Assembly (NCBI GenBank): GCA_037176725.1
Contig: JAZBRS010000026.1
Coordinates: forward strand, 62,102,501 to 62,166,500
DNA length: 64,000 bases
DNA from: Posidonia oceanica
Lineage: Eukaryota > Streptophyta > Magnoliopsida > Alismatales > Posidoniaceae
Reading direction: 5' to 3'
This document shows, piece by piece, positions 1 to 32,931 of this stretch. The first letter of the stretch is position 1. Every line of letters begins with the position of its first letter. Position numbers and translations under genes: made by a program. A model generated the notes under the pieces. The model did no database searches, had not been told where the DNA came from, and was given only the letters and a program-made list of their open reading frames with translations.

Positions 1-436
1 ATTGGTTATATAAGGTTGAACACAAAATCTCCAATCCCTATTAGGAGAAGCTTAGTAGTTCTCACTATGTTAATGTTGTTGCTGTGAAATCATACTGAAA
101 GACTTCTAGAAAAATGACTCTTCAATGGAATCATTATCAAAATCTAAAGATATACTTATTAAAAATCATTATCAAAATCTAAGGATATACTTAATAAATG
201 TCTATGCGTACTGTAAATTGTTCATGGGTTTCGTTTGTTTATGCTGTAAGAATCTACTGGTCTCTCAATGTTGGGCTCATCTAGCAATTGAAGAGGATAA
301 AGAATTCCTAAAATCAAATAGGATAAATTGCCCTTTACATTGGGGTTTTTTAACATTCTTCTTTACTTAGAACAGATTGTCTGATTTTTTTATAAATAAA
401 TCCTATCATTCTTCAAAAATTAGTGTGGAAACCAAA

Positions 437-467
437 TGGTCTATGGTCTATGGTCTATGGTCTATGG
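437..467. repeat. 7-bp microsatellite, about four copies
   Basis: Four uninterrupted copies of TGGTCTA followed by TGG. It is a short simple repeat with no coding meaning. Confidence 0.85.
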
Positions 468-1270
468 ACAAGTGTAATTAGATTTTGTTTTCTTTTCCTA
501 TTTATAAGTTCCTTCCCTCTCTTCTTCTTCTTTCCTATGTTACTTTGAGGGCAGTGATTGTCTGTATGGTGTTTGTTCTTTGTATTCTGATGTTCCATCA
601 ATAAAATCTTGAAAGATACCATGCTAAAAGTAGGTGTTATCCACAATGGCAAGCATACAGTGTTGTTCGAGAGTCCAAAGAGGTCTAGACGTCTTCCATA
701 CATAACGAATTATTGGTGAAAATGAAATGAGTGAATGTATGCACTCATGTATGTAAATCATAAAATAGTAGTTTGTTTATTGCCATATGGGATAAATAAT
801 TACCAGTAACATAATAGATAGATAAAAGCCAAAACATGGGATAGTACCACTAGACCAGCCTTAATGGAATTTAACCATTCTACTTCAAATGCCAACATGG
901 ACGCCCAATGGACTACTACTGTTTGATGATACTGCATTTAGAAACAGGAGAGAGAAGAAATATAAGTTGGGCATTGAAATAAAAAATAATTTTGAAGACA
1001 GAGGAATTTAAAAACACCTAAGAATATAAATATCATAACCAACAATCTCTATAATCTCCTTCAGTTTAGGTACAAAATAAGAAAGAAAGGGGAAACATAT
1101 GTACTGCATTAAGCAAGACAAGTATACAAATGTCCATGCAAGCACACTATCTTCTTAGAAGAAAAGGGGACATCAAAGGCGTTGCATTGTTTAGGTAGTT
1201 GTATCAAATGTAGCAAGATAGTTATGATACAAGAAATAGGAGATCGTGTATGCTGTTAAGTAAACAAACA

Positions 1271-2076
1271 TACTGTCATACTGAGTACCTTCTCCAGTGA
1301 GGCAAGTCGATCTACTGTCAATGCATCGGCTTGCACAACACCATAGTCCAGCACATCCTACGTATTTCACTCAAAAAAGTTTGTTATGATCAATTTACCA
1401 CCATTAACCATCAAGAACTAGCAAACTACAGATTATCACTAATAAAGTACTAGGGATCTTGCACCAAAGTCCCATTGGCCACTAGGTGGGCACATATGTA
1501 TTTAAGTTTGTGCCGAGGCGGCGAAGGTGGAGTGAACATGTGCCAAGGCAGCAAAGGTAGCAGTCGGAGTGAGGAGATACATCAGCACGAAATTGAGGAT
1601 CAAGCCAACCACTAGCGTCGAGAAGACAAAATCGAGCTCGTACAGCCTCTAGTTGGGGCGGGACACCTTGTCACCAAGCACGCAGGGCTGACGCCAACAA
1701 GCTCCTCCATCAAAACCTTGAACAGGAACTCTGGATTGATAGTAACCCTAGATCTCCTCCCTTGAATAAGGTGGCGGCCGAGGGTGGCACAGTCAGCGAC
1801 AACGGACAGGGAGAGGTAGTAGGGGTGGAGGAGGAAGAAGGAGGAGGCGACGAGCGCACCGATGAGGACGGGAGATGGTGGATCTGGGGTTGAAGGAGGA
1901 ACGGGAGGATGTCTGCTTCGGGAGGAGCGGGAGGATGGCTGCTTCGCAGAGGAAGGGGTGGAAGAAGAAGAAGAGTGGAAGGATTTGGTTTGGGGAGGAG
2001 GTTGTGGGGATTTGGGGAGGAGTGGAAAAGGAATAGAGGAAAAGAGGAAAAAGGCCCGCGTACGTGAAAATTTCAA
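1271..2076 (-). other. Unidentified exon-like sequence inside the CACTA element
   Basis: The minus strand of 1612-2076 has an open frame of 154 codons starting MKFSRTRAFF. It has a Ser/Pro-rich N-terminal part and a hydrophobic stretch around residues 90-108 (VLIGALVASSFFLL). Further downstream on the same strand, about 1356-1271, an exon-like piece containing DYGVVQADALTVDRL is flanked by an AG acceptor and a GT donor. Because the neighbouring CACTA of the same family carries captured host exons, this may be a captured fragment too. I do not recognise the parent gene, and the frame could be chance in GA-rich DNA. Confidence 0.3.
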
Positions 2077-2084
2077 AGATGTTT

Positions 2085-2260
2085 AGCGAGGACATTGCGA
2101 GGAAATGTCCTCGCGAATTGTCCTCGCAAAACCCAGAAACTGTAGTAGTACTATTTAACAAGGACATTGCGAGAAAATGTCCTCGCTAAATCCTCACTAT
2201 CACTTTACGAGGACATGTCCTCGCAATGTCCTCGTGAGTTATCCTTACTAAATCCAAAAA
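2085..2260. repeat. CACTA subterminal repeat array (GAGGACATTGCGAGG units)
   Basis: Repeated GAGGACATTGCGAGGA and its complement TCCTCGCAATGTCCTCG occur several times within 180 bp of the 2271 terminus. The same units occur at 13739-13885 and 20215-20460. In CACTA elements such arrays are the usual transposase-binding zones; that role is inferred here. Confidence 0.7.
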
Positions 2261-2271
2261 TTCTAGTAGTG

Positions 2272-3098: not shown

Positions 3099-4318
3099 TG
3101 TAACGACCCAAGTTGCTACCAACACATTCCAGAAAGTCTAACAAATTAAAACTTAATTAAATACAACAATTACAATAAACTATGGGCTAAACAACAAGAA
3201 TATGTACTAGGAATCTACAGTGGACAGCTACGTAACTCCGACTATATGCACTATGACTCCAAACCAGCTAACCATCTGCACCTGCAACTAAAAACACGAT
3301 AAAGCACACGTGAGTGATTAGAAAAATGTCATCCAGCACACATCCCGCAAAACTACGAGAAAACTGGCTTAAAACCCCAAATCTGGGCCCATGTAAGCAT
3401 TTTATAATAATAAAGTACCCTTTCCAAAGCCGAATAAGCTAAACCGAGAAAGCAAATGCAAAATAAAGCTCTTTAATTCAAAGCACGGCCTACAGGCCCA
3501 AAACTACTCAAAGTGGGGTCCACTGGCCCAAAACTATTCAAAGTGGGGCCCACTGGCCCAAGACTATTCAAAACACAATGCCACAAAACAGGCAAGCTCG
3601 AGACCCTCTACGACCCAAACAAAACAAGCATGGCCCAACACGGGCACAAAAGAAAACCAACTAGTCGTGTTGCCTGGCGCCCCAGCAACCGACCTAGCCT
3701 CAAGCAGTAGCCAGGGACTCATCCCTGCAACTCACTGCACTGCCACGGGAACCCGCCCTGTGGGGGAGCGTCCCAGTCACGGCATCTCACACCAAAGACA
3801 CCTCAAAAGCAATCCCCAACTGGGAAAGCGGTCCCCACTCGGGAGAAACCACAGGGCACGCAACAGATCGGCGTTTACAAGCTCAGTGTTCCGAACCACT
3901 AGAGGCTCCTCTCCCCTAGGCTCAGCCAGCACGAAGGCGAGTCCTAGTGTCCCTAGCGGCTAGGGTATCACGTCCAGCTATGCAGGAGTATCATACCTCC
4001 CGAGTCCGCTGCCACGATACCACTAGGTACAGACGGTACTCTGACTCCCAAACCTCAGCCCAGGCGAAGTGTGCAACACACCAGGAATGCCGTCACGCCC
4101 TCAGATCCAAACCACACGACTCCCAAGCTTCGCCCACGGAAAAACCTCGACAAATCATTTGCAAAACACCTATGATTTTACTCAAAAATCTCTTTGAAAA
4201 CATTTTCCTAAATTACCAACAATCACAATTAAAAATCATAAATAAGCCATCAAAACATTAATAGGCATAGCATCATTAAAAGCCATTTGAAAACAGGGCT
4301 GGGAAACATTCCAGACCA

Positions 4319-4460
4319 AAATCGGTAGACCGAATTCCAATCGGTCGACCGAAAATCCCTGATTTGGAAGACCAAAAAGGTCCGGTTAACCGAAAACAGG
4401 TACAGGAGCACAAACAGGAAACAAGTTCGGCATACCGAATGAATTCGGCATGCCGAAACA
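4319..4460. repeat. Array of CGG...CCG palindromes in the Gypsy LTR
   Basis: Within 140 bp the sequence contains CGGTAGACCG, CGGTCGACCG, CGGTTAACCG, CGGCATACCG and CGGCATGCCG. These are near-perfect 10-bp palindromes sharing the CGG/CCG arms but with different centres. The same array is in the second LTR at about 13008-13140, with one or two units mutated. Confidence 0.75.
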
Positions 4461-5179
4461 GAGCATGACTGAAAAACCCATTTTTCAAACTTTAGTCCCA
4501 AAACACTCATGTTTTTCTTCAAAAATCTCTTTCAAAATATTTTCATAAATTACCAAAAATCACATCTAAAAATCTCTAACAAGTCACTAAACATGTACAG
4601 ACATTGTCATAATTAAACATAATAAAAACCTAAAGCAAACCCCCCAAAAAATGGGGCTGAGAAAAATTCAGGCCATGATTCGGAATATCGGTCAAAAACG
4701 GTATTCCGAAACAGGAACTGACAAAAAAATGCCCTGTTTGTATTTAAACCTAAACTCCTTGCACAAGCCATCAAAAATAGCATATAATATACCGAAACGA
4801 CCGGAATTGAGTAACGAATACAACCACATCATAATCGAACCATTCCAAGATCCATAGCTCATAGAAAATATGAAAAACCATAGCATATGTATATAAACCA
4901 CATAGGCTAAAATAATTTGCTTAAAGAAATACCAATAAATCTCTAAAAATTATTAAATCTCTACCATAACATATAAACATGGCAAGAAACATAATTGTAT
5001 AATTTTCAAGTATTTTTAACAACTAAGGGCGAGACGTGTACCTTGGGACAGAGGGAACTACCACTGTCCTCTAGCGAACCACCACCGCCTTGGCCCCCCG
5101 GCGACCCACGATGCTTCCTCGGAGTTCACTCGACCACGGGAAGAGACCAGAGCTCGCCACCACGCGTTCGCCACCGACA

Positions 5180-5660
5180 ACCACCGTCGAGCCCAACAAC
5201 AAGGGGAAAGAGGGGGAAAGGGAGGAGGAGAGATGGGTGAGGAGGCGGAGAGGTGGAGGAGGAGCAAGCCTCGCCGCCACCATCGCTGGAACTAGGGCAC
5301 AGGAACGGGGACGGGAGGAGGAGGAAGAGGAGGAGGGGGAGATGGGAAAGGAGGGGGAGAGGTGGAGGAGGGGGAGAGGAAATGGGGAGGAGGTGGAGAT
5401 GGGAAAGGAGGGGGATAGGTGGAGGAGGGAGAGTGGAGAGTGGGGGACGAGAGAGGGAAGAGGTCTGCAGGAGGGATGGGGAAGAATGGGGAGGAGGAGA
5501 AGAAATTTTTGGTTGAAGGGAGGAGGGAAAAATAATTGAATAGTGAAATGTGGGGGAGAAAACGTGTGGAGGGGAGGGGGAAGAGAGAATGAGTGGGAAT
5601 GAGAGAGAGAGGAGGAGAGAGGGAGAGAAAAGAGAGAGAAAGAGAATGAGGAAAATGGCA
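5180..5660. repeat. Purine-rich (GGA/GAG) tract in Gypsy LTR
   Basis: Roughly 480 bp in which the plus strand is overwhelmingly purine, dominated by GGAGGAG, GGGAGAG and AGAGAG runs. It is present in the second LTR at about 20630-21090, so it belongs to the family. It gives spurious long open frames on both strands. Confidence 0.8.
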
Positions 5661-5929
5661 TGAGTATCGAGGATAGGGATCAAACTACCACTTGGTCCTA
5701 CAATCACCACAAGTGGGGTCTACGATAACACAAGTGGAATCCACAACAAACCATAAGTGAGACCCACGAATAATCACAAGTGGGGTCCACGAGACCAATA
5801 ACATCCGTCCACAAATACAGGAATTCATTAAATTGTGCAATTACAATGGAATGAATTCCCAAGTGTTACAGCATAAACACGTAAAAAGTATTTCGCCTCC
5901 AAAATCAACGGTAGGCGAAAAGATGCGGG

Positions 5930-8082: not shown

Positions 8083-8171
8083 AGCACAAGCAACAACATC
8101 CCCAATTAAACAACAAGATTCATATTACAGGGGAAAGAAAACAACAACATACAATGGGTTACACCACCTAA

Positions 8172-8764
8172 GGAAACTACGGAAACTTACCCTCTATAAC
8201 ATCACCAGAGGGCCCACTGTCGGGAGCAGAAATGGTGAACACTCGCCCCTGAGTCAACTGATGTGGTGCACTCCCCGCTCTCTTGGGAGGATTAGGACAG
8301 AACTTCTGGATATGTCCCGGTCTCCCACAGTTGTAGCAACCTGTTCCTCTCTGACTTGTAGTCCGCTACGCTCGAGGGCAGTCCGCTGCAAAGTGACCCG
8401 TCTGGCCACACTGGAAACACTGGGCACTCCCCTGTCCACTCGACGCAGCCTAACTAGGAACGGTGCTATCAACTCCAGCAAAACTGTACCGCGCACCAGA
8501 GACAGAACCGGTCCTGCTACCTCCTGTCAAGCTGTGTCGGGCACCAGAAGCACCTCTAGATCTGTCCTTCTTCCTCTTTCCCAGACTACTCGTGTCATTG
8601 GAACTTCGTGGACTAGAGAATGAGAACCGAGAAGCAAAGGACGACTTGGTCTTCCCCTTGGAGCAACCTTCCATGAACTGCTGATATTCCTCCTCAAAAC
8701 GGGAAGCCATCTGGACCATATCAGCTACCGTCGTGCATCGGCAGCCCATCACCTTCACCCTCAA
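8172..8764 (-). pseudogene. Gypsy B gag, C-terminal half with two zinc knuckles
   Basis: The minus-strand frame contains RVKVMGCRCTTVADMVQMA, then a Ser/Arg-rich linker and two CCHC knuckles, CFQCGQTGHFAADC (about 8420-8379) and CYNCGRPGHIQKFC (about 8340-8299). In-frame stops lie before and after the first knuckle. The N-terminal half of gag lies at 11021-11607, separated by the inserted solo LTR. Gag forms the particle and binds the element RNA. Confidence 0.85.
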
Positions 8765-8777
8765 GCTGGGTTGAAGG

Positions 8778-11015
8778 TGTAATATCCTGATTTTCCATAA
8801 TATAATTTGAGTTAATTATTTTAGAAAATCATTCCCTGTTGTTTGTGGTGTGTTGGTGTTTGTGTGTCTCTGGTGGTTTTGTTTCTGGCTCCTTGGAGTT
8901 GTTTGATGTGGCCGTGAAAGTGAGGGCTTGATTGAATGAAAGTTAAGGGCTTGTTTAATGATTGTGGAGAGAGAGGGAGGAAAATGCAATTTTTTTTCCA
9001 CTTTCTTTCCCCTCCCCCACCGCACGTGTCCTTTTCCTTTCTTCTTTCTTCCCTTCTTTCCTTTCCTTTCTCATTTTTATCCACCACCATCGACAACCAC
9101 TGCCCTAGGGGATCGCTGGCGGTCGAAGGAGGTAGAGGAGGTGCGACCGGTGCTGGAGGAGGAGCGGAGGTGTGCCAGAGAGGTGTTTTTGTGCCCGGTT
9201 GCCGAAGGAGGCGGAGTTGCTCGCCGGAGGCCGAAGTTGGAGGTTGAGGGTTCGCCGATGTGGTGCGTGTCCTCCCCTTCGTTTCTCTTCTTGGAATCAT
9301 GCCTAAATGCTTTGAATGCATGTGATCTAGCTATGCCATGATAATTGTAGGATTTTATTTGGTTTTGATTGAAATGTGGATTGAATGGAATGGGTTTCGT
9401 TTTGACATCTTGAGCTTTGCGATTTAATATCTTGATGCATGATGCATGGATTGGTTTGATTTTTGTGCCCAAGTGTAGAGCACTCGTGAGACTTTGATTC
9501 TGGTATTTACTCGTGATTTATGGATTTTTGTGGTGGAATCGATTGAGGTTTTAAGCTCGGGCGATTTGTTTTGGATTCTGTTTTGGTTTTCAGAAATCGC
9601 CCAGATCGGTACGCCCTTTTTGAACGGTATACCGATTTCTGTAGAAATCGGTACAATCGATCAATATCGGTGTCCCGTTTTGCCGTCAGATTTAGACCAG
9701 GACCGGATTTCAGTCGGTCGAAATCGATCGGTTTGCCGATTACTGTGCAGATTGGTTCGACCGGTGGATTTAGTTCCACCGAACTAGGGATTTTCGGTGC
9801 GACCGGTGTGAATTTCGGTATGCCGTTTTAGGTCTGAAACCTGGACTCGGTACCCAGAACGGTTAATCAGTTGATTTGGTTCTCTCGAATCAAGGATTTT
9901 CGGTCGACCGGTGACTTTTTCTGTGTACTGTTTCAGGGGAAAAATGGTTTCTAAAGAAGAAAGATTTGGGTTTTCGATGCATTTGGCTTTATTATGATTT
10001 AATATGGTTTTATGAATGTTTTGATAAAACGTGAGATTTGTGGATTATGAGGAGTAATTTTTAAAGGATTTCCAAATGATTTTGGAAAAGAAATGCATGT
10101 TTGTGAAAAGAGTTGGAAATGATTCCGTGGTTTTGGAAGGACCAATAAACCGAAGCTTCTCACTGGTAGCCAGGGGTGTTTGAATACACTTGTTAGTTCA
10201 AGAGCTAGATAGCCTAGGGTGAGGTTAGCGGTACAGTAGGACCCATTAAAACAGACGGTCTACCCTCTGTGCCGGTGCTGGCTGGGGCTGGGGTTAGAGT
10301 CCCCAGACGCTCGGGCACCAAGGAACGCCAGAGTGCGTAATCCTGTGTTGATAATTATGTTAATCATGGAAATGATCATGATAAAAATTGAGGGTTGAGT
10401 TCTTGGGGCAGATTGTTCTCCCACACGGGATAGTCTTCCACGGCATTGCAGCCAAGAGATGCGTGTGTCATCTGCAACTGCTTGTGGCTGGTGTCGTTCA
10501 CCTGTGACCAGGGTATTCAATTAGATTTAGAATCGATGTGTGTGTGAGTGTGGATTTGAGATGGATTTGTGATGTATTGAGAATGCATGTTTTTAGAAAA
10601 TGTGGATAGCTTTATAAAAAGCATGTGGTTTTATAAAATGAATGTTATGCTTTTAAATAACATGGATTACTATGATTTACGATGTGTTGGATATTTATTG
10701 CCCTAATTGATAGTTTTGCTTTAGTTAATGTTTCCGCTGCTGTTTGCCGTGGTTTGGAGTGGCACGTACTGAGTGACTTAGATGTCACTCACGCGTGTTT
10801 TGTGTTTTGGTTTTCAGGCGCAGGGTCGAGGTACAGTCCAGCCTTGTGCTTGTTAAGAGCTACGTAGCCGCACACTGGGGATCTTAGGAGTATTTTATTA
10901 GTTTTGTAAAAGTTTTAAATTTATTCTCAATTGTAATTGAATCTTTATTTGTTTAATGATTGTTTAAATATCATTTAAGTAGTTGATGCTATTTTGGTCG
11001 CGTCGGGGCGTGACA
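8778..11015 (+). mobile_element. Solo LTR of a second Gypsy family inserted in gag, 2238 bp
   Basis: Begins TGTAATATCCTG and ends GGGGCGTGACA, with TG...CA termini. The interrupted gag frame continues across it. The flanking 5-bp target copies are GAAGG (8773-8777) and GAAAA (11016-11020). The two differ only by G-to-A changes, and the gag frame reads sensibly if the original was GAAGG. No internal region and no second LTR are present, so it is a solo LTR left by LTR-LTR recombination. Strand is given by the TGTAA...TGACA orientation. Confidence 0.8.
9600..9920. repeat. Second array of CGGT...ACCG palindromes, in the solo LTR
   Basis: Over about 320 bp there are many CGGT/ACCG and CGAC-CGGT units, for example ACGGTATACCG, CGGTCGACCG, CGACCGGT and CGGTATGCCG. 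The surrounding sequence is not otherwise alignable by eye to the Gypsy B LTR, yet the same motif type is present. Confidence 0.65.
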
Positions 11016-11020
11016 GAAAA

Positions 11021-11607
11021 CCTTCCAGGAATCTATTCGCCCGCCTCTCTTCAGAATCGAAGGCTTGGGCAAACCTCTCCAACCGGGCAAACATAGCCTC
11101 ATATTCCGCCACAGTCATGTTATCCTGTTGGAGATTCTGGAACTCTCGGTCGAGCCGATTCTGCACATGGCTCGGGAAATACTTCTCATGGAAAGCAGTC
11201 TCAAAGTCTTTCCACTTGATGTCGACCATTATAGAATCCGGAAACTTCAGCCGCCTTGTGGCTGTCCACTAATCATCAGCATCTCCTTCTAGCTGAAACG
11301 TGGCCAATCGCACCCAGTGCTCAACCGGGCACGCCATGCTATCCAATAACTTCTCGATCCGCCGCAGCCATGCCTCGCATTCCTCAGGAGCACCTTTTCC
11401 CTTGAACGTCGACGGGTGAAGCTTGCTCAACTGGCGTAGCCACGGATCTCCCTCAGACGATCCACTAGAGCCGCCCTTGCCAAAAGCATGAGAGATTCCG
11501 TGCATCCAGCTCCGCAACTCAGTTCGCACACCCTGCCATCCGCTCTCCTCCGGAGAGCTAGGCTCCGCAGCAGGTGTCTTGTCCTTCTTACGACCACGGG
11601 GAGGCAT
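11021..11607 (-). pseudogene. Gypsy B gag, N-terminal half
   Basis: The minus-strand frame starts at ATG 11607 (MPPRGRKKDKTP). It continues through LSKLHPSTFKGKGAPEEC, a stop near 11269 at a position where the family has Trp, and then KWKDFETAFHEKYFPSHVQN and DNMTVAEYEAMFARLERF, the retrotransposon gag domain. It is cut at 11020 by the solo LTR. The start is the first ATG after the 5' LTR and primer-binding site. Confidence 0.87.
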
Positions 11608-11765
11608 TCTGCAACAAAAGAGAAACAACAACCTGCACCACAGTAAAAAAGACAAACAACAATATATGATAAAAAATCGACAGGTGCAGACTCAACCATG
11701 ATATGCAAATCCTATGGAGTCACTAGACTGAACACCTCTTGGCTAGTGCAACCTAGTGAATCTGG

Positions 11766-11777
11766 ACTCTGATACCA
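11766..11777 (-). promoter_or_regulatory. Primer-binding site of Gypsy B (initiator tRNA-Met type)
   Basis: The plus strand reads ACTCTGATACCA five bases before the right LTR. The minus strand therefore reads TGGTATCAGAGT, complementary to the 3' end of plant initiator tRNA-Met. It fixes the right LTR as the 5' LTR. Confidence 0.85.
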
Positions 11778-11781
11778 ATTC

Positions 11782-13718
11782 TGTAACGACCCGAGTCACT
11801 ACCAACACATTCTAGAAGGCCCAACAAATTAAAACTTAATTAAATACAACAATTACAATAAACTATAGGCTAAACAACAAGAATATGTGCCAGGAACCTA
11901 CAGTGGACAGCTACGTGACTCCAACTATATGCACTATGACTCCAAACCAACTAACCATCTGCACCTGCAACTAAAAACACGATAAAGTACACGTGAGTGA
12001 CTAGAAAAATGTCACCCAGCACACACCCCTCAAAACCACGAGAAAACAGACTTAAAACCCTAAATCCGGGCCCATGTAAGCATTTTATAATAATAAAGTA
12101 CCCTTCCCAAAGACAAATAAGCTAAACCAAGAAAGCAAATGCAAAACAAAGCTCTTTAATTCAAAGCGCGGCCCACCGGCCCAAAACTACTCAAAGCGGG
12201 GCCTACTGGCCCAAAACTATTCAAAGTGGGGCCCACTGGCCCAAGACTATTCAAAACACAATGCCACAAAACAGGCAAGCTCGAGGCACTCTATGGCCCA
12301 AACAAAGCAAGCATGGTCCAACATGGGCACAAAAGAAAACCAACTAGTCGTGTTGCCTAGCGCCCCAGCAACTGACCTGGCCTCAAGCAGTAGTCAGGGA
12401 CTCATTTCTGCAACTCACTGCACTGCCACGAGCACCTGCCCTGTGGGGGAGCGTGCCGATCACAGTATTTCACACTAGAGACGTCTCAAAAGCAATCCCC
12501 AACTAGGAAAGCGGTCCCCACTCGGCAGAAACCACAGGACACGGAACAGATTGGCGTTCACAAGCTCAGTGCTCCGAACCACTAGAGGCTCCTCACCCCT
12601 ACACTCAGCCAGCACGAAGGCGAGTCCTGGTGCCCGTAACGGCTAGGGTATCACGCCCAGCTACGCAGGAGTATCATACCTCCCGAGTCCGCTGCCACGA
12701 TACCACTAGGTACAGACGGTACTCTGACTCCCAAACCTCAGCCCAGGCGAAGTGTGCAACACACCAGGAATGCCGTCACGCCCTCAAATCCAAACCACAC
12801 GACTCCCAAGCTTCGCCCACGGAAAAACCTCGACAAATCATTTGCAAAACACCTATAATTTTTCTTAAAAATCTCTTTGAAAACATTTTCCTAAATTACC
12901 AACAATCACAATTAAAAATCATAAATAAGCCATCAAAACATTAATAGGCATAGCATCATTAAAAGCCATTTGAAAACAGGCCTGGGAAACATTCCAGACC
13001 AAAATCGGTAGACCGAATTCCAATTGGTCGACCGAAAATCCCTGATTTGGAAGACCAAAAAGGTCCGGTTAACCGAAAACAGGTACAGGAGCACAAACAG
13101 GAAACAAGTTCGGCATACCGAATGAATTCAGCATGTCGAAACAGAGCATGACTGAAAAACCCATTTTTCAAACTTTAGTCCCAAAACACTCATGTTTTTC
13201 CTCAAAAATCTCTTTCAAAATATTTCCATAAATTACCAAAAATCACATCTAAAAATCTCTAACAAGTTACTAAACATGTACAGACATTGGCATAATTAAA
13301 CATAATAAAAACCTAAAGCAAACCCCCCAAAAAATGGGGCTGAGAAAAATTTAGGCCATGATTCGGAATATCGGTCAAAAACAGTATTCTGAAACAGGAA
13401 CTGACAAAAAAATGCCCTGTTTGTATTTAAACCTAAACTTCCTGCACAAGCCACCAAAAATAGCATATAATATACCAAAACGACCGGAATTGAGTAACGA
13501 CATAGGCTAAAATAATTCACAGAAAATATGAAAAACCATAGCATATGTATATAAACCACATAGGCTAAAATAATTCGCCTAAAGAAATACCAATAAATCT
13601 CTAAAAATTACCAAATCTCTACCATAGCATATAATCATGGCAATGAACGAATTGTATAATTTTCAAGCATTTTTAACAACTAAGGGCGAGGCGTGTACCT
13701 TGGGACAGAGGGAACTAC
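11782..13718 (-). repeat. Gypsy B right LTR (5' LTR), first segment
   Basis: Begins TGTAACGACCCGAGTC and is nearly identical to 3099-5060 until the CACTA insertion. A short local duplication around CATAGGCTAAAATAATTC (13500-13575) distinguishes it from the left copy. The remainder of this LTR is at 20475-21294. Confidence 0.9.
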
Positions 13719-13738
13719 TACTACTACTAGAAATTCTA

Positions 13739-13885
13739 CATTTTGCGAGGACATCTAGCGAGAAAATTGCGAGGAAAAGTCCTCGCAATATTTTAACGAG
13801 GACAAATAACGAGGAAACAACGAGGATATTTCCTCGCAAGATTATAACGAGGACTTAACGAGGACATATCCTCGCTAAGTCCTCG
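13739..13885. repeat. Left subterminal repeats of the Pack-CACTA
   Basis: Units such as GCGAGGACAT, AACGAGGACA and their complements (TCCTCGCAA, TCCTCGCTAAGTCCTCG) recur about ten times directly inside the left terminus. Confidence 0.75.
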
Positions 13886-14277
13886 CTAAACTGAGAAAAT
13901 TGTTCTAGCACGAGGCCTTTGTCTTTTTTTTCTTTTGTTACTTTCCCCGTCCTCCCCGAATCCCTCGACATATTCCCAAACTGACGAAACCAAACCCTCC
14001 TCCCTTCTTCTTCCTTCCCTTCCTCCAAAAACACCACCTAAACCCTACCCCCCTTCGTCTTCCTCCCCTTCCTTCAAGTCCACCACCGAAACCATTTCAC
14101 CCTTCTTCTTCTTCTTCTTCCCCTCCTTCTTCTTCTTATTCTTCTTCTTCAGATCCCAATCCTCTTTGCCCTAGACGACTCCTCTGCTCCTTCGATGGTG
14201 TTCCATGTGAGCGTCTCCTCCTCCCTCTCCCCCGCCACGCTTCCACCAGCCCAACCCCACCGACCACCTCGTCTCTG

Positions 14278-14426
14278 GACCAGGTCAAGTGGGACTACCG
14301 TGGCTAGAGGAGGATCATCCCCCTCGGACAGTGACTCCCAAAGATCGCCATCGACGCCTACGTCGCCCTGAACGTCGTGCTCGCTGGCCAGGTGACGATC
14401 TGGGACGGGTCGTCCGTGTTCATTGG
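14278..14426 (+). pseudogene. Captured fragment of a gamma-carbonic-anhydrase-like gene
   Basis: The plus-strand frame reads DQVKWDYRG, stop, RRIIPLGQ, stop, LPKIAIDAYVALNVVLAG and QVTIWDGSSVF. This is the beginning of the left-handed beta-helix of plant mitochondrial gamma-carbonic-anhydrase-like proteins, which are subunits of complex I. Two in-frame stops, at 14305 (TAG) and 14332 (TGA), break it, and it ends shortly after SVF with no further helix repeats. The GC content is well above that of its surroundings. Upstream CT-rich sequence from about 13900 may include the parent gene's 5' region. It is a dead fragment. The identification rests on about 45 residues that match the family closely. 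Confidence 0.75.
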
Positions 14427-14440
14427 AGGATTTCACAGGT

Positions 14441-16115
14441 CCAGCTCATGAAGATCAAGCGCACCAAGAGAGGTCCTGCTGCTTCTGGTGCTAGTGAGTG
14501 ATGGATTTTAATCGATTATTTATAACTCAGTATGTAGATGATTTCACTTACTTATGGGAACAATGCTTACAGTAATTCCAAATTTGATATTAATTGAGTT
14601 CATTGGAGGATTTCAACATCTGGAAAGATGGACGGTATATAAGTGACATGGTGATCTTCTATGCTACTTCGAGCTTACTTTACTTTTTGGCTTTGTTTGA
14701 GCTGTTTGTGTAATCTTAGTTTCTAGGTGAAAGTAGAATAGGAGTTTTAGGTTTTCTCATGATTATTTAGGTTGTGTCATGGAAACAATAAACTTTCTAG
14801 TCACATGGCAGTATGTTTTATTTGCCTTTTACTTGTGAGAATTGGCCAATTAGGTAATACCTGGTGGTATTAATGCATTCAAATTGTATTAAAAAAATTC
14901 AAATACACTGATGGTCTCTGCTTTTGGTTTAAATGTTTATGCCCTTTGCATGTCCCTGGTTATAGAACATAGGTGAACATATTTATCTAGGTGCTTATAT
15001 GGTGGCTTACACTAAATGTTTTCCACGTCTATATGCATGTCAAGAGTAAAATTGGATTGAGTTTCTACTTCTTTTTTTGGTTAGTTTGTGGGCAGTGCTT
15101 TAGAGCATCCAATCATCATAGTACATATCCATCTTTAGGGGATTTACCTCCTTTGAGATTTTTGTATTTGTTAATCCTCGAGGGCACATATCTTAGAAAT
15201 ATACAGTTGCCATATTGATCAGCAACCGCAACATAAACTCTGGTAAGTACTATAATTGATTTTCTGTTTCTATGGCAGGCCAATCTTCCTTATTCATAGC
15301 CATAGGTCTGCAGATATGAGAGAAGAAATTTATGAGAGCTTATAGTTAACTAAGTATTGCTTATGTACTCGAAGTATGCAACCTTATTTATACAATCTCT
15401 TTCTTTTTGTGGCTTGGCCTCCTCGATGTGCATTTTTGTTTGGTTCCTTGTTTTTTTTAAGTATTTGTTCATTTTTTGTTTAAGATATGATATCATATGA
15501 AACAAATTCAAATGAATGAGAAACATATTTTACAACTTGTCAGACGATCTTTTCCCACGATAGTAACACCTGACTTACTGTACAATAGCAATCTGCTATT
15601 TCCTTCATAGTTTTGATGCAGCAACATATGTTTGTTTTTAAATTCTAATTGAATGGGAGTATGTTGCCATACTATCACTAATAACTACTGAAACTTAGGC
15701 AACCTTCAACTTATGTACGGGTGTCCATGGTACGTGTTTTTAGTGAATATTGTCAAGGTAGGGTAGCACTCTAGTAGTATCTTAACCAAACAGTTCTATT
15801 TACTTAATAAATAAAGACTAAATGGCTCCAATCCAAAATTTGAAAATATGATATGATCTGATAGAAGCAGATCATATGGTAGAGATGAGTGTTCAGAGTA
15901 TGCATGCTTTGATCTAGGATGTTTGCCATTTAGCACATGTGTGTAGGTATATATGTTTTTCTACTGATTATTGTCAAGGTAGCAGCAGTGTCCTAGTTGA
16001 CCAGGGTTCTAATTACTTTACATAATGACCAATTGGCTACAATCCAGAACTTCCAAAGGTGAAACTTTCTGATAGGAAAAGATCATGTGGTAGAAAGGTT
16101 AGTTTTGTGTTCAAA
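14441..16115 (+). other. Pack-CACTA interior, no identified gene
   Basis: AT-rich sequence between the gamma-CAL and DCL4 fragments. A short frame after a CACAG acceptor-like site (VQLMKIKRTKRGPAASG, about 14440-14500) could be a further captured exon, but I do not recognise it. Otherwise it looks like intron or non-coding sequence. Confidence 0.5.
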
Positions 16116-17563
16116 ATGGGCACGACACTAGGTGTTTCATCAACTACAGATTGTGAGGATCAAATCAATGAACTTGAGAGAACTTTAGACTCTAAGGTGG
16201 GGACAAGTCACTATTCTATTGGTAGTTTCTTATACATATTCTACGTCTTATGTGTCTGTTCTCTTGATATGGAGTACCTCCTAAATTGGATATTGTTATT
16301 CTCTTTATTTTCTTACAGGTCTACACAGTGGCCGACAGAGCTGAACTTGAAACATTTGTTCCTTCTGCAAAAGAAATTAATAGATATTATGACCCACCAT
16401 TGTCACTTCATGAGGATTTAAGAGCAGGCCTAGAATCACTTTGGATGGAGGTTATTTATTCCCTTTATTTCTATCATTTTGCAAAGATTGTTCATTATCT
16501 TCATCTCTTTGTTTAAAAGTCTTGCATTTTTTTATTAATAGCATGATACCTCTATCGACCATTTGCAAGACTCAACATGTCAGTTATATGATAGTTGTGA
16601 TGCACTGAAGGCAACAAAAAAGCGATTATCCAGCTTTCATGTCAAGATCTCTGATTCTCTAGAAAAACTTGGTCTTTTTTGTGCCAGAAAGGTATAAGAT
16701 ATTTCTTTCTATTATAGGCCATTGGAAAATACCATTTCTCTCATAAATTTCTTTCCTTTTTTTTTTGACAGATTTCCTATTTCTGATTTATGTTGTCTTG
16801 GTTATATCAGGCCACTAAAATCTGTATGGAAAGTATTTTCGACCCACAATCTTTGGAGAGATGTGATATTTCTATTAGTGGTTTGCAGCATTGTAGCAAT
16901 TTTCTGAAGGAAGTGCTGCGAGTAATTGAAGAAACTCTGCCACATGGTAGGACATGAAATTCTAATAGCTCCTTGAATCTAGAGCAGGCAAAATTATGTT
17001 AGATCTTAGTAAGACACAAGCAGTTCAACTTTATTCCTTGAATGCAGTTGTTGATTTTAATATTGGATGTACCATTTTATCATTAACATCTTATCGACAC
17101 TCTACATCTGTTTCACTAATTAAAAATTTTAGTTCTCTGTGTTAGTATTTATTCCTTATTTTTGAAAGAGTCTTTGTCAGACATTCGTAATTCTAAAGTC
17201 CAACTTTTCTTGTTTTTCCCTGCCATATTGTTTTTCTGATATAAATTTCGTATCTGTATTTTGTAAGAGTCTTTATCAGTTGTTTGTCATTCTAAAGTCC
17301 ACCTTTTCTCCTTTTTCCCTGCCATATTAATTTTCTGATGTTTATTTCGTATCTGAATATTTGGCAGAGAAAATGATCAACAAAGAGATCTTTTATTTGA
17401 CATTGTCCGTAGCGAACATTCAATGATGCATACTGCATTGAATAGTGATCCTAACACTAGTATTTTAGAACCATGCTACAAAGATTTGTATGTATATTCT
17501 GTTCACTCAACTAGAGCCTCGATTACAGTAGATTCATCTGTCAGTCTTCTCTATAGATACTGT
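16116..17563 (+). pseudogene. DCL4: Captured fragment of DICER-LIKE 4 (helicase part and start of the DUF283 region)
   Basis: Exon-like blocks retain splice sites. 16116-16196 includes GVSSTTDCEDQINELERT. 16319-16450 includes VYTVADRAELETFVPSAK. 16542-16691 includes HLQDSTCQLYDSCDALKA. 16811-16946 includes SLERCDISISGLQHCSNF. 17368-about 17563 includes ASITVDSSVSLLYRYCE. The first four match the stretch after the DExD helicase core of plant DCL4, and the last matches the segment opening the dsRNA-binding DUF283 region. The exons between them in a real DCL4 (second helicase domain) are absent, and the codon phase does not match across 16946/17368. The PAZ and RNase III domains are missing too. 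Dicer-like proteins cut dsRNA into small RNAs; this piece cannot do so. DCL4 rather than another DCL is judged from the residue pattern. Confidence 0.75.
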
Positions 17564-17917
17564 GAGTATTTTCTGTGAGATCCTTATTTTATGTACTCAA
17601 TGATGCGGGACTGTCATAGATTAATATGGAATCATTGAGATCGGTTCTTTTTTTTTGAAAGATTGGGGGATGTACATGTTTCATAATCATCTAATGTTGA
17701 TGTGAGAAGACCCACTCTATTTTGCATTTATCAAGCTCATCTTAAGTCTTAGCTCTTAAATGATATATAATTATATATTAACTTTATTGAGAACAAAAAG
17801 TATATTTCTAGTGTCTATGAAAACTAGACAAAAATCAGGAGAATAATTAGATTTTGAGATTATGTTTATAGTATTATTTTTTAAACTCAGCACTCAGATA
17901 TTAAAGAACTTCTGCAG
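17564..17917 (+). other. Pack-CACTA interior, intron-like, nothing identified
   Basis: AT-rich sequence between the DCL4 and site-1 protease fragments. It ends in an intron 3' end (CTTCTGCAG at 17909-17917). The junction between the two captures lies somewhere here. Confidence 0.5.
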
Positions 17918-18122
17918 GTGGACTCTCTGATTCTTGGACTTGTACAGGTCGGTGCTGGTCGTATTGCTGTTTATGGAAATTCCAACTGCCTTGACAATAG
18001 CCACATGGTGACCAACTACTACTGGCTTCTGAAGAAGATCTTAGATTTCACTAACCTAGATATTAGAGATCCAGTTCTTTTTTCTGACTCATTCAAGCAA
18101 GAGCATGGACTTCCTTCAAGAG
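17918..18122 (+). pseudogene. S1P: Captured exon of site-1 protease (subtilase S1P / SBT6.1)
   Basis: One exon bounded by TCTGCAG and GTAAGAG reads VDSLILGLVQVGAGRIAVYG, then NSNCLDNSHMVTNYYWLLKK and ILDFTNLDIRDPVLFSDSF. The GRIAVYGNSNCLDNSHM block and the following WLLKK are a conserved segment C-terminal to the catalytic domain of plant and animal site-1 proteases, Golgi enzymes that cleave membrane-bound transcription factors. No catalytic residues are included. The frame is open and the splice sites are intact, so it could be spliced into a chimeric transcript. About 400 bp after it are unrecognised. Confidence 0.75.
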
Positions 18123-18534
18123 GTAAGAGCTGTGAATACCTTTGCCTTCATGTTTCTCCAGGCCATTAGCTTTTCTTTTTGCTACCAAAATAAGGACAAA
18201 AGAGTGATACAACAATTCGTCATGTTTTCTGGGTCCTCCAGAATGAAGTCCTGCACAAAATAGTGAAATTCAAGCCCATTGGGTAACAGAAGCTAAGGAC
18301 CACAGGTTTATCTATCCATTCTTCCAGAATCAGTGGACTTCTGAATTCTTTACCTAAGTCAGACTTCATTTATTTACTGTAACATGATTTTATGACTTAG
18401 ACATCTCTCTGAGTTCTTATATTCTGTTGTATGTGTGGTGCATCATGCTACATGAGTCCCATTCTCTTATTCTAGAACATAGAATACATCCCAGGACAGA
18501 AATCTCTTGACCTATTGGGAACATTGGTGGGCTA

Positions 18535-19827
18535 AGTTGGCTCTATCTTTCTCGGCTTGCTGCACTTAAGGAGTTTGCTTTTATGAAGGTTTTTTGATTG
18601 CCTTCTTGGGTTTATGTTTTTCATACTTTAGTTTGCAAATACGTGATTGAAAAAATGTACAGGCTTTAGGAGAGCATGGATTTCCTGTTCCAAATGCTGT
18701 GGACTGTAACCGGCATTGCGTGGTGATGTCCCTTGTGCAAGGTTATCCACTGTAAGTGCATTCACTTTGTTTTTTTTAGCAATCAAGTAGAATATCGTAT
18801 ACATTCTTTCACATTCTGAATCTCGTATTAGTTATAGAAACCACTGTCAAGATCTATACATCTCAGTTCTAGAGCATGATTAGGTACTTGTGTTGCTTAT
18901 TTAGAGAATGTATACTTTTTTTAACAATTGAAGATGAAAAGTAAAATGCAGGGTGCAAGTAAGGGAACTGCAAAATCCATATGTGGTATTTGAAACGATT
19001 CACGAACTTGTTAGGACTTGTAGTTTATTACATCTTTTGGATTTGGTTTATTAGGGAGATATTGTTGGCAAAAGGTATTTCATGTCCTGTGACCTCATGT
19101 GATTTTGCATATTGTCATTTTTTTAACAGAGTTAATTTAACTCACGTTATCTTGTTTGCTTTTGACATTTCAGTCATAGTGTTTTCCATATTTTTATTCA
19201 ACATAAAGTGCTTGCTCGCTAGCATGAACTTGTTTCTTGAGCTTAACTTAACCTTTTGTTGTTTTAGATTGATGACAATGAGAAGATTACATTGATTGAT
19301 TTCCCTCAAATGGTGTCTGTTTCCCATCGCAACGCTCAGATGTATGTGGTACCTTGTTCTTTTGTTAATGTATTTCAGCATTTTGTTTCAGTTAACGTTT
19401 TTTTTATGAACTTACCTATATAGAAGTTTCAAACTTGTTGCATTTGTCTTTTGTTTCATCGTTAATCTCTTTTTTGCAAGTGTTTGAACTGTATTTTGAG
19501 AAGACAGTTACTTTTCTTCCCAGGTACTTTGATCGAGATGTTGAATGCATTTATAAGTTCTTTAGTAAGAGGTTTGTTGTTGAGAATCTGCTTTGTTTTG
19601 TTTGCCATTTTTATTTTGGCACCTGTATCTTTAGCTACTTACTATTTGCTTTTTTCAAGTTGAACCTTTCTTTTCAAGATAGTGCTGGTGACTGTGACGA
19701 GTCAGATTCAGAGAATGATGGAAGTTGCAGACTTTCCTTTTCTTCAATAGAAAAGTCTACAGGCTTCCTTGATAAGGAGCTTGCTGCTAGTGGGTTTACA
19801 CGAAAAGATCAAGTTGAAATTGAGAAG
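18535..19827 (+). pseudogene. RIO2: Captured fragment of RIO2 atypical kinase gene
   Basis: Exon-like blocks in order: up to 18588 with SWLYLSRLAALKEFAFMK; 18663-18751 with ALGEHGFPVPNAVDCNRHC and VMSLVQGYPL; about 18953-19020 with VQVRELQNPYVVFETIHELV; 19267-19341 with IDDNEKITLIDFPQMVSVSH; 19525-19571 with YFDRDVECIYKFFSKR; 19660-19827 with LNLSFQD and an acidic Ser/Asp stretch. This is the C-terminal part of the RIO2 kinase domain and the beginning of the acidic tail. IDFPQMVS is the metal-binding loop. The exon that should carry the HCDFNEFN catalytic loop is missing between about 19020 and 19264. RIO2 acts in 40S ribosome maturation. The N-terminal winged helix and the ATP loop are absent. 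Confidence 0.8.
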
Positions 19828-20214
19828 GTAAAAGATACAAGATACTTCATGATCTTGTAGAGTACAAGTGTTGATTTTATTTCAGTTTGTGTAGCTATGC
19901 TGTGTTAGGAGGCTAGAGCTTGAGATGCAACACATAGCATTTTTGAATAAAAAAAGATTAATGAGTGTTTTATGTGTATACATTTATTACAAAGAAAGCG
20001 AAAAGGAAAATTAGGTATCTAAAATCAGCTACTTTTTCACTTTTGATACCATTTTGTGCAATTTGATGCATGTAAACATGAATATATGCAAGTTAATTTT
20101 TTAAATTTTTTAAATTTTTTTTAAATTTTTTAAATTTTTTATTTTTTTTATTTTGGACATTTCCTCGGTAAGTCCTTGCAATTTTTATTTTTTAAATTTT
20201 TTAAATTTCTTTTT
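19828..20214. other. Pack-CACTA interior, T/A-rich spacer
   Basis: AT-rich non-coding sequence with repeated TTTTTTAAA units at about 20098-20150 just before the right subterminal repeats. No gene seen. Confidence 0.6.
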
Positions 20215-20474
20215 GCGAGAACATAACGTGTACTTTGCGAGGATATTGCGAGGACATTACGAGGACATTGCAAGGACTTTATTTCCTCGTTAAGTCCTCG
20301 CAAAATTTTAGCAAGAACTTAGCTAGGAAATTTGCTTGCAAATGGCTTTTAACGACGTAGCATTTGGCGAAGACTTTTTGTCCTTGCAATTTCCTCGTGA
20401 ATTCCATTAGTGAGGACATTGCGAGGACTTCGTGAGGACATCTGTCCTCGCGATTTGCTGTTTTTCTAGTAGTG
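20215..20474. repeat. Right subterminal repeats and terminus of the Pack-CACTA
   Basis: At least ten GAGGACATTGCGAGGACTT-like units in both orientations, ending with the terminal TTTCTAGTAGTG. The unit consensus matches those at 13739-13885 and 2085-2260. Confidence 0.8.
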
Positions 20475-21294
20475 TACCACTATCTTCCGGTGAACCACCA
20501 CTGCCTCGGCCCCCCAGCGACCCACGACGCTTCCTCGAAGTCCACTCGACCATGGGAAGAGACCGGAGCTCGCCGCCACGCACTCGCCGCCGACAGCCAC
20601 CGCCGAACAGCCACGGTCGTGCCCAACAGCAAGGGGGAAAGAGGGGGAAAGGGAGGAGGAGAGATGGGTGAGGAGGGGGAGAGGTGGAGGAGGAGCAAGC
20701 CTCGTCGCCGGAGCTAGGGCACAGGAACGGGGACGGGAGGAGGAAGAAGAGGAGGAGGGGAGATGGAGAGGGTGAGGGGGTGATGGAGGGGGAGAGGAGA
20801 TGGGGAGGAGGTGGAGATGGGAAAGGAGGGGGAGAGGTGGAGGAGGGAGAGTGGAGAGTGGGGGACGATAGTGGGAAGAGGTCTACGGGAGGGATGGGGG
20901 AAGAAGGGGGAGGAGGAGAAGAAATTTTTGGTTGAAGGGAGGGAGGAGGGAAAAATAATTGAATAGTGAAATGTGGGGGAGAAAACGTGTGGAGGGGAAG
21001 GAGAAGAGAGAATGAGTGGGAAGGAGAGGAGGGGAGAATGAGAGAAAAGAGAAAAGAGAGAGAAAGAGAAGGAGAAAAATGGTACGAGTATCGAGGATAG
21101 GGATCAAACCACCATTTGATCCCACAAATCACCACAAGTGGGGTCCACGACAACACAAGTAGGACCTACAACAAACCACAAGTGGAATCCACGAACAATC
21201 ATAAGTAGGGTCCACGAGGCCAATAACACCCGTCTACAAATACAGAAATTTATTAAATTGTGTAATTACAAGGGAATGAATTCCCAAGTGTTAC
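20475..21294 (-). repeat. Gypsy B right LTR (5' LTR), second segment
   Basis: It resumes with TACCACTATCTTCCGGTGAA, homologous to 5056 onward of the left LTR, and ends CCCAAGTGTTACA at 21294. It includes the second copy of the purine-rich tract. Confidence 0.88.
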
Positions 21295-24200
21295 ACACTA
21301 GCATTATTCTCAAACTTAGAATATATGCATTTATCATCAACATTAACTTTAAAGCCCTCATCCATGACTATTTTATTGAATTTCTCATACCACTAAATAG
21401 GAGCTTACTTCAAGCCATAAAGAGATTTCACAAGTTTACAAACTTTCTTTTTTTGACCTGGTTGAACAAAACCTTCCGGTTGTTCCATATAAATCTCCTC
21501 TTCTAAATCACTATTTAAAAATGTTATTTTCACATCTATTTGATGAACTATCAACTTATGGATGGAAGCAAGAGAAATTAGTACTCAAATGGAAGATATT
21601 TGAGCTACAAAGGCATTTGTATCAAAATAGTCGATCCCATGTTTCTGTTTATATCCCTTGGCAACTAATCTAGTTCTAAAATTATTTATTGATCCATCTA
21701 CATTCAACTTCCTTTTGAAAATCCATTTACACCCAATGTGTTTTATACCTAGGGATAAGTCTGTTAACACCCATGTTTGATTTGACATTATGAAGTTCAT
21801 TTCATCATTAATAGCTTCTTTCCAAAAGAAAGAATCTCTGGAGTTCACTACTTCTTAAAATGTGGTTGGATCATTACTTTCCACATTTAAAATGAACTTT
21901 GTAATATTCTTGATTTCCGTCATGTCTCCTTCAACACAATAAATAAGGAAATCCAATCCATGTGCGTTTGATTCTTGCTCTTTTAGTTCTCTTAAGTTCA
22001 ACATTATCTTGTTGTTCCTCATGATGTAGGACCTTAGGAGGAGGCTCATCTTGAGGAAGTTCCTCTTGTCGAGGCTCATCATAATGTTGAATTTCAAGAG
22101 GTGATTGATCTATTTGTGGTAGATCAAAACCATCACCATTGATACTCATATCATCTTGATCAGATTCTAAATTTTGATCAGTAGTAGAATTTTCATTTGG
22201 TGGATCTTGAGAACTTGATTTAGATAGATTCCCAAAAAATTCTACATCTTGAGATTCCATAATCTCAATAGTATCAAGAACAAGAAATCTGTAAGTAACA
22301 CTATCTTGTGAGTATCCAATGAACACACATTTCAAAGTTCTAACACCCAATTTTGTCATCCTAGGTTGAGGTTTTCTTACATATGTAAGACACCCCTACA
22401 CTTTTAGGCAATTCAAATTAGGTTTTCCTTTGAACCAAAGTTCATAAGGAGACACTTTCATTTTTCTAGTAGGAACTCTATTTAAAATGAAACAAGCAGA
22501 TAATAAAGCTTCACCCCATAATGAATATGATAAACCAAAACTCACAATCATTGCAACCACGATTCTATTCTTTCTTTCAGTAATTCCATTTTGCTGTGTT
22601 GAATAGGGAGCTGTTGTTTGATGGATAATTCCATGAGTTTCACAAAATTTTCTAAATTCAATGTGAGGAAAGTATTCGCCCCCTCTATCTAATCTTACAA
22701 TCTTAATTTTGTGATTAAGTTTATTCTCACTTTCTACCTTGAATATTTGAAACTTGTCAAATACTTCACTTTTACTTTTCATCAAGTAAATATATGCATA
22801 TCTACTATATTCATCAATGAAAGTAACAAAATATTCATTACTCCTGCAAGTAATTTGTTGTTTTAGATCACATACATTACTATTAATAAGTTCAACAATG
22901 GTAGAAATTCTTTCAATAGACTTAAAGGATTTTCTAATCATTTTGGTTTGAACACATGTTTGATATTTAGAAATATCATTAAAATTACATATAGGAATTA
23001 ATTTTAAATTAGTCATATTTCTAATGGAACCATAATTCACATGTCCAAGTCTATGATGCCATAAGGATGCATAAACACAATCAGCATAATAAACAAAGCC
23101 ATTTTTTATTATTTAGGTTCAAAAGAACCATTCCATTACAAGAATATCCATGGCCCACAAAAACCCCTTTCTTGGTTAAAGCGAGCATAAAACCAAAAAC
23201 AAGATTTTTGCTCAAATTTGGTACATGCAAGACATTGACTAAATCAATCATCTTTCTAGAAGTGAACACAAGTCGAACTCTTCCTTTGCCAACAAAAGGA
23301 GCACTTACACCGTTTGCCGTTTGCACGGATCCGCTATCATGTCCAAGTTCCTCATAAACATGGAAGAAACTTCTATCATAGCAAAAGTGATCCGTTGCAT
23401 CGGTGTCAAGGTAGAAGCCAACATCCTTGAGAATAATAGTGTTACTTGTGATAGCAGCAACCATCTTTTCTCCGCTTTTCATGGTTGAGACATTGAGACA
23501 CTCAACCACATTTGCATTAACGTTGGAGTCATTCCCTTGGACTTGTATTGTTTCTTTCAGAAATGACACTTATGTGCATAGTGACCGAGTTTGTTATATA
23601 TGTAACAATTCCCTTTCATCTTTTTCTTCTCAGATTTCTCCTTGAAGACATTGGCTTTCCCTTTTTGTTTGTTGTTGAATTTCTTGGGCTCCAAACCCCG
23701 GTTCATCTTCTCATGATTGCATGATTCCTCTTCAATTCGAAGATGACGTTATAGAGATTCCAAAGAATATTTCTTTTCCTCATGTTTCGTCTTCTTTTTA
23801 TAGTTCTTCTAGGAAGTAGCCAATTTGGCAATAATTGCCCCCAGTTGAAAATCTTTTGGAAGATCTATACTGGCAGACTTTAAGTCTCCCACAATCAAGT
23901 GAAGTTCATGCACTTGTGTAAGAACACTCTTATCACAAGTCATTTTGTAATCAAAACAATTTGAAATAAGAAACTTTTGATTACTTGCCTCTTCAAGTTT
24001 GTACTTGTTCTCCACTGACTTCCATAGTTCCTCTGCCGTTGCCATAGTCCGATAATTATCATAGATGGAATTGGATAGCGCATTGAGGATGTGATTCTTG
24101 CAAAGAAAATCGTCAATCTTTATCTTCTTGCGCTTCTCCTTGATTTCGTCGGTGTCTTCATATGTTGATTCTGGAATGACTTTCAAATCATCATCCAACA

Positions 24201-27365: not shown

Positions 27366-27593
27366 CATCCCTAGCGTCCAAGCAAAATACTCTCCACTTC
27401 GTTTAACGTGCAAGTTGCAACCTGTCTCTCCTCCAGTGCACGCATCATTTCTCCCGCCATTAAAGTAGGACGAGGAGCAGAGAAGACGAAAAGAAGAAAA
27501 AAAAAAGAAGAAGAAAAAAAGGAATCCCCACGAAACAAAACAAGACGACACTCCTCCCCCTTTCTTCCAATTCCAGTGGCGGAAACCCTCAGC

Positions 27594-30500: not shown

Positions 30501-31003
30501 AGTTTTCTGATGTAACTTTTGCTGTACGTGGTGTTTTCTCTGTGAAACTTATTGATGATTAGTGATCAGTTTCGTCAATGACTGAAATAAGTACTTCTGG
30601 TGCTACCTATCCTTACATTCATTTAAAATTCTCTACATGCAGGTGGAGTGGTTAACTGGAGGCGAGTGTTCAGCTGGCATGCATGAGGTTGTTGTGTCTG
30701 ACAGGACCATCAGCGCTATTGAATTAGCACAGCAGCAAAATCACAGTTTGTGGAGGGTGTCTTCAACGGCAAGTGCATATAAATTTCCAGATGTATTTTG
30801 TTGATATATTTTGTTTTAATGTGATATTCACACATATTTTCAATCAGCTTTTCGCACATATTGCTTCTGATGCTATATTAAAGCCTTTGGGACACTTTGC
30901 GGATGCGCCACTTGCAAAAAACTATCCACCTGTTCCTGCGGGGGAATTTGTTGAGAAAGAACTTGCAGCAATTAACCTGAAAGGCCAGAAGGCAAAGTCA
31001 TAG
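27594..31003 (+). CDS. 2-oxoglutarate/Fe(II)-dependent oxygenase family protein, 7 exons, 359 aa
   Basis: Exons: 27594-27848, 28786-28959, 29046-29138, 29232-29300, 30171-30377, 30643-30768, 30848-31003. All introns are phase 0 by my reading. The protein starts MKLPVVDLGLYL, the usual opening of the DIOX N-terminal domain. The jelly-roll core carries YHYD (His223-x-Asp225), a distal His280 in AGMHEVVVSD, and an R-x-S motif at Arg304 (LWRVSST), the iron and 2-oxoglutarate ligands. Length and layout fit plant soluble 2OG oxygenases; the substrate cannot be told. The start is the first ATG after the TATA box and aligns with the duplicate gene's start. Intron 6 uses a GC donor (ACG/GCAAGT) where the dead duplicate keeps GT. 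Introns 1 (937 bp) and 4 (870 bp) are the longest. A tandem pseudogene copy follows at 32307. Confidence 0.88.
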
Positions 31004-32923: not shown

Positions 32924-32931
32924 TCAACGAT

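Follow-up and report, generated by a model that had tools for sequence, protein, structure and literature searches.

A Pack-CACTA transposon carrying fragments of four host genes within a gypsy-type LTR of Posidonia oceanica

We analyzed a 64,000-nucleotide stretch of Posidonia oceanica DNA (the window) and conclude with high confidence that it contains a flowering-plant non-autonomous Pack-CACTA transposon with four captured gene fragments, which jumped into an LTR of a gypsy-type retrotransposon less than about 3 million years ago. An earlier note on this DNA had proposed a Pack-CACTA element at 13722-20474 with CACTACTAGAAA-type termini and GCGAGGACAT subterminal repeats, and this proposal was confirmed by the TIRs, the repeat counts, the target-site duplication and an empty site within the same window. 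The element, its borders and the host LTRs are as follows (coordinates, strand, feature, basis).

13722..20474, plus strand: CACTA-type element, non-autonomous, of the Pack-CACTA type (TIRs, subterminal repeats, target-site duplication, empty site)
13722..13890, plus strand: left terminal and subterminal repeat region (repeat finding, motif matches)
20213..20474, minus strand: right terminal and subterminal repeat region (repeat finding, motif matches)
13719..13721, no strand: left copy of the TAC target-site duplication (empty-site alignment)
20475..20477, no strand: right copy of the TAC target-site duplication (empty-site alignment)
3099..5870, minus strand: LTR A of the gypsy-type retrotransposon, uninterrupted and thus the empty site (self-BLAST, alignment)
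11782..21295, minus strand: LTR B, interrupted by the CACTA element, with LTR sequence at 11782-13721 and 20475-21295 (self-BLAST, alignment)

The right end of the 6.75-kb element (20463-20474, minus strand) is an exact match to CACTACTAGAAA and provides a TIR with the CACTA start, and the left end (13722-13733, TACTACTAGAAA) has a single mismatch to it, C to T at the first base. Counted from the first base inward, the two TIRs pair at 24 of 32 bases. When the first base is left out, 24 of 31 bases pair, a value reached by none of 20,000 random window pairs, although this control flatters the TIR because the stretch had been preselected by the repeat finder. Subterminal repeats of the GCGAGGACAT type, characteristic of CACTA elements, are present in both orientations at both ends. 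With at most one mismatch allowed, GCGAGGACAT occurs 27 times in the window versus 1.73 expected; 15 of these units lie in the two ends of the element, eight at 2086-2235 in the end of a second CACTA element (see below) and four elsewhere, and none was found between 13891 and 20210. At 16869-16880, within a DCL3 exon, a 12-mer that resembles the TIR apart from one mismatch was taken as a chance occurrence.

Six-frame Pfam scans detected no transposase family in the element at E 0.1 or better. The sensitivity of these scans is low, as they missed the DCL3 and gamma-CAL fragments even on the sense strand, and a decayed transposase remnant could therefore also escape them. A TnpA/TnpD-type transposase of its own is required only of autonomous CACTA members, and the element was accordingly filed as non-autonomous. 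The presence of host coding DNA between CACTA-type TIRs, with no transposase family found by Pfam, places it among the Pack-CACTAs.

Both LTR copies start with TGTAACG and finish with TGTTACA. An ORF between them (7045-8124, minus strand) encodes a retroviral-type protease and reverse transcriptase, and the repeats are therefore read as the LTRs of what we infer to be a gypsy-type element. The joined flanks of the CACTA element align with LTR A, in which TAC, present on both sides of the element, occurs once, identifying it as the duplicated target. CACTA-type elements produce 3-bp target duplications. An extra TAC unit at 13716-13718, seen on the left side only in the empty-site alignment, probably reflects slippage. 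TIRs and the TAC duplication enclose the 6.75 kb, none of which is present in the sister LTR, so the element moved as one unit. The empty site also demonstrates that the element ends bound the fragments, as had been claimed. Of 2733 aligned sites, the two LTRs share 2529 (92.5%), and they differ by 170 transitions and 34 transversions (K2P 0.080). Assuming 1.3e-8 substitutions per site and year, this divergence corresponds to about 3.1 million years, so that the CACTA insertion is at most roughly this old.

The gypsy-type retrotransposon (3099-21295, minus strand) itself seems to be nested in copia-type sequence, with a region resembling RVT_2 on one side (2397-3068; 27.7 bits, just under the Pfam cut-off of 31.6) and an integrase core with a GAG-pre-integrase domain on the other (22399-23112; Pfam). 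Its outer flanks read CATCG and CACTA, with no clean 5-bp duplication.

The captured fragments within the element are the following.

14275..14421, plus strand: gamma carbonic anhydrase-like 2 (gamma-CAL2) fragment (PDB sequence match, E 9.5e-23)
16131..16946, plus strand: DCL3 fragment with four exons, 16131-16196, 16319-16450, 16542-16691 and 16811-16946 (sequence searches, splice flanks)
17366..17561, plus strand: second DCL3 piece, the fifth exon piece, about amino acids 493-557 (tblastn, splice flanks)
17918..18122, plus strand: site-1 protease (SBT6.1; S1P) fragment, one exon with AG/GT flanks (PDB, Pfam, splice flanks)
18535..19827, plus strand: RIO2 kinase fragment, six exon pieces (sequence match with E 1.2e-38, protein search, tblastn, splice flanks)

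The four unrelated host-gene fragments reported earlier are thus real, and the coordinates given for them were essentially correct. The gamma-CAL2 fragment covers residues 50-97 of its best solved relative and contains two in-frame stops; its identity is based on the PDB sequence match, no Pfam family having reached E 10. The Dicer fragment, by contrast with its earlier assignment to DCL4, belongs to DCL3. Against solved relatives it scored 58.6 bits with DCL3 (E 7.2e-15), versus 30.7 with DCL1 and 28.3 with DCL4, and a search of 5.8 billion proteins retrieved DCL3 of Anthurium, Magnolia, pineapple and others with E values down to 3.8e-60. The best 120 of 182 matches listed included 42 Dicer rows, some of them nameless or named without a class, and the class names visible among these were 3, 3a or 3b, and none was 4. 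Anthurium, Magnolia, pineapple and Colocasia provided the closest relatives among the matches listed (52-58%). The bit scores and the class names of the listed homologues together rule out DCL4 as the parent. The location described for a single Dicer piece, 16116-17563, essentially holds, but the fragment is not unbroken: the four-exon piece corresponds to about amino acids 180-339 of Anthurium DCL3, and the intervening parent stretch (amino acids ~340-492) was not found between the two pieces by tblastn with DCL3 homologues.

The site-1 protease exon covers the terminal part of the fourth GATase-like domain (Pfam MBTPS1_4th, E 1.9e-21) and matches a solved membrane-bound transcription factor site-1 protease with an E value of 2.4e-9. 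Relative to Typha RIO2, the RIO2 fragment spans residues 147-214 and 234-331 (about amino acids 147-331 overall); it lacks residues 215-233, which carry HCDFNEFN, a stretch that we take to be the catalytic loop. In the protein search, the best 120 of 2368 matches were all RIO2 proteins. All four gene fragments are therefore partial. Two further features were observed in the element. The first, at 14437-14491, is exon-like when read by eye, with AG before and GTGAGT after it; it codes for VQLMKIKRTKRGPAASGA and is perhaps a fifth captured piece. The second is a diverged direct duplication (15731-15883 and 15952-16094, 72%) in a part of the element without gene assignment.

The statement that the fragments share one (sense) orientation was borne out, as all four lie on the plus strand, and for the minus strand the low-sensitivity Pfam scan of the element returned no families. 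Four of four in the same orientation has a 1-in-8 chance and hence needs no explanation. The shared sense orientation, together with the introns or splice flanks retained by three of the fragments, would also suit a normal or pseudogenised gene cluster with CACTA ends inserted on either side by chance. This is extremely improbable, since the whole 6.75 kb, bounded by TIRs and TAC, is missing from the sister LTR and so moved as a unit, and since every one of the fragments is partial. The empty site rules out such a cluster, barring an exact loss from the sister LTR.

Of the 12 exon pieces assigned to DCL3, site-1 protease and RIO2, 11 are preceded by AG and 11 are followed by GT; the limits of the pieces were set by the analyst, and two of the AGs, those of the fifth piece of DCL3 and of the first of RIO2, are uncertain. 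The preserved exon/intron structure indicates capture from DNA and not from cDNA. When joined, the DCL3 pieces give 225 open codons, given one of two possible AGs. When all 12 pieces are joined, the frame shifts at the junction of DCL3 and site-1 protease and again within RIO2, and stops follow. Consequently, the single chimeric transcript suggested by the earlier note is possible, but a single protein read through all exons is not.

We compared the fragments with homologues at conserved positions, using as homologues the top listed matches, which are biased towards the query and of which the distinct rows were kept (39 of 42 for DCL3, 47 of 78 for site-1 protease, and 84 of 120 for RIO2). At positions at least 95% conserved, DCL3 departs at 6 of 31 (19.4%) and site-1 protease at 3 of 38 (7.9%); both values lie close to those of the highest homologues (17.1% among 39 and 7.7% among 47, respectively), and the site-1 protease excess is marginal. 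RIO2 departs at 1 of 73 positions, which is ordinary, as 40 of its 84 homologues are equal or higher. With a 90% threshold, DCL3 departs at 7 of 49 (14.3% versus a homologue maximum of 14.0%), site-1 protease at 3 of 43, tied by one homologue, and RIO2 at 1 of 82, again ordinary. The DCL3 departures would fit the decay of unselected DNA, those of site-1 protease would fit it weakly, and RIO2 was perhaps captured later. Given that RIO2 has no excess, that the site-1 protease excess is marginal and that DCL3 is open for 225 codons, recent capture or partial constraint is possible.

These observations bear on an alternative in which the element would be a chimeric gene, either domesticated or nascent, with a spliced chimeric mRNA that yields a selected protein product. 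Such a gene could account for the preserved splice sites, the open DCL3 exons and the RIO2 change at conserved positions, which is no greater than in ordinary homologues, and it has a precedent in soybean Tgm-Express1, whose exons are spliced into chimeric transcripts when driven by a host gene promoter (PMC1947982). We nevertheless consider it highly unlikely: gamma-CAL contains stops, the frame is broken both at the junction of DCL3 and site-1 protease and within RIO2, and DCL3 and site-1 protease each exceed their highest homologue in departures at positions at least 95% conserved. Moreover, the location inside a retrotransposon LTR is one where silencing would be expected.

DCL3 makes 24-nt RNAs that silence transposons. 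The presence of a DCL3 fragment in the element therefore raises the question of whether small RNAs from it are fed against the parent genes, chiefly DCL3, thereby weakening the silencing of transposons by the host. Rice CACTA elements offer an analogy: the miR820 that they carry is directed against OsDRM2, a methyltransferase gene (PMC3459959). We scanned 132 windows for hairpins, with 40 shuffles each. The z-score fell below -4 in seven of the 132 windows (-5.5 to -9.1), all in the subterminal repeats, and the lowest window in the DCL3 region reached -2.99, which indicates no hairpin there. Six inverted repeats of at least 20 nt were detected between 14200 and 20100, with lengths of 20-25 nt and a complementarity of no more than 76%. 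A hairpin small-RNA precursor inside the element is thus unsupported by either the z-scores or these short inverted repeats, and we regard the feeding of small RNAs against the parent genes as very improbable. No Rfam family matched the window at gathering scores, and ARAGORN found no tRNA in it. As the DCL3 part lacks a hairpin, there is likewise very little probability that transcripts of the captured DCL3 fragment serve the transposon as a decoy or as a source of small RNAs and so reduce DCL3 activity. If it did, this would be a counter-defence paralleling that of miR820 against OsDRM2, achieved through gene-fragment capture. Among titles and abstract openings, a literature search returned no report of DCL3 capture by a CACTA element.

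Under the favored Pack-CACTA reading, the CACTA ends would serve as the substrate of a transposase made elsewhere, and the element would be mobilized in trans by an autonomous relative. At some point it took up genomic pieces, introns included, of DCL3, RIO2 and site-1 protease, plus a part of gamma-CAL2, and it then inserted into one gypsy-type LTR no more than about 3 million years ago, creating the TAC duplication. The fragments would be passengers that have no role as proteins; at most, they would be spliced into chimeric RNAs that are non-coding or carry short ORFs. Capture may have occurred via the fusion of neighboring elements after faulty excision or via gap repair. The former, in which adjoining insertions fuse after faulty excision, has been proposed for Pack-CACTAs (PMC13317346, PMC8903248). 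We sought inner subterminal repeats and found no repeat remnants at the joins between the fragments, so the element does not indicate its capture mechanism.

The window contains one further element of the same end family.

1..2271, minus strand: second CACTA element, extending from its terminus at 2271 in the direction of the window start or past it (self-comparison, subterminal repeats)

This terminus shares the GCGAGGACAT-type subterminal repeats of the first element; no opposite terminus was recognized inside the window. Near 1487-1749 the second element contains a RETICULATA-like fragment (Pfam PF11891, E 1.3e-9 over 1487-1684), and a weak match in another frame lies just upstream (Pfam E 0.022, below the curated cut-off); with matches in two frames, a frameshift is possible. 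As this second CACTA element holds another gene fragment, gene capture seems to have taken place repeatedly in the family, and the presence of the second end in the same window suits the published idea that the fusion of neighbors captures DNA.

Other repeats were observed in the remainder of the window. The region 27375-33000 holds two diverged copies (72%) of a non-haem dioxygenase-like exon, one near 27.5 kb and the other near 32.4 kb; homologues of the exon show 67% in the best rows and up to 77% over shorter stretches, and no homologue of the LTP-like part of the query was identified among the rows examined. Stretches near 28.8 kb are repeated near 36.8 kb, and those near 30.1-31.0 kb are repeated near 46.6-47.4 kb (46600-47440); the repeats of this area reflect either local duplication or shared repeats. 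A DUF4371 domain at 34510-34995 (E 5.6e-41) is presumably a hAT-like transposase remnant, and a reverse transcriptase domain, RVT_1, at 54046-54696 (E 2.8e-14) probably belongs to a LINE.

Among the closest known systems is Tgm-Express1 of the soybean wp allele, a 5.7-kb CACTA element with pieces of five genes that is transcribed and spliced into chimeric transcripts (PMC1947982). Like the Posidonia element, it is a CACTA of similar size that combines parts of several unrelated host genes, introns as well as exons; its site, by contrast, is an intron of a flavanone 3-hydroxylase gene and not a retrotransposon LTR, the captured genes differ, and its transcription and alternative splicing have been described. 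Arabidopsis and maize Pack-CACTAs likewise combine CACTA-type TIRs with captured coding DNA, and those of maize often draw on several loci; for those of Arabidopsis, mobilization and family copies have been observed, whereas the Posidonia window holds a single full element plus one related end (PMC8903248). A 3-bp target duplication is a further trait that Pack-CACTAs share with the Posidonia element. In light of the five genes in Tgm-Express1 and the several loci of maize Pack-CACTAs, the earlier view that four parents in one element are notable carries little weight (PMC1947982, PMC8903248). The rice CACTA elements, in which miR820 lowers OsDRM2, share with the Posidonia element the possession of sequence related to a component of a host silencing pathway; miR820 is a microRNA with a demonstrated target, whereas the Posidonia element has a plain DCL3 exon-intron fragment without a hairpin (PMC3459959). 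Multi-gene Pack-CACTAs are thus a kind that is already known, and the Posidonia element adds another such case. It is a well-bounded multi-gene capture, with an empty site within the same 64 kb and a host retrotransposon that limits its age.
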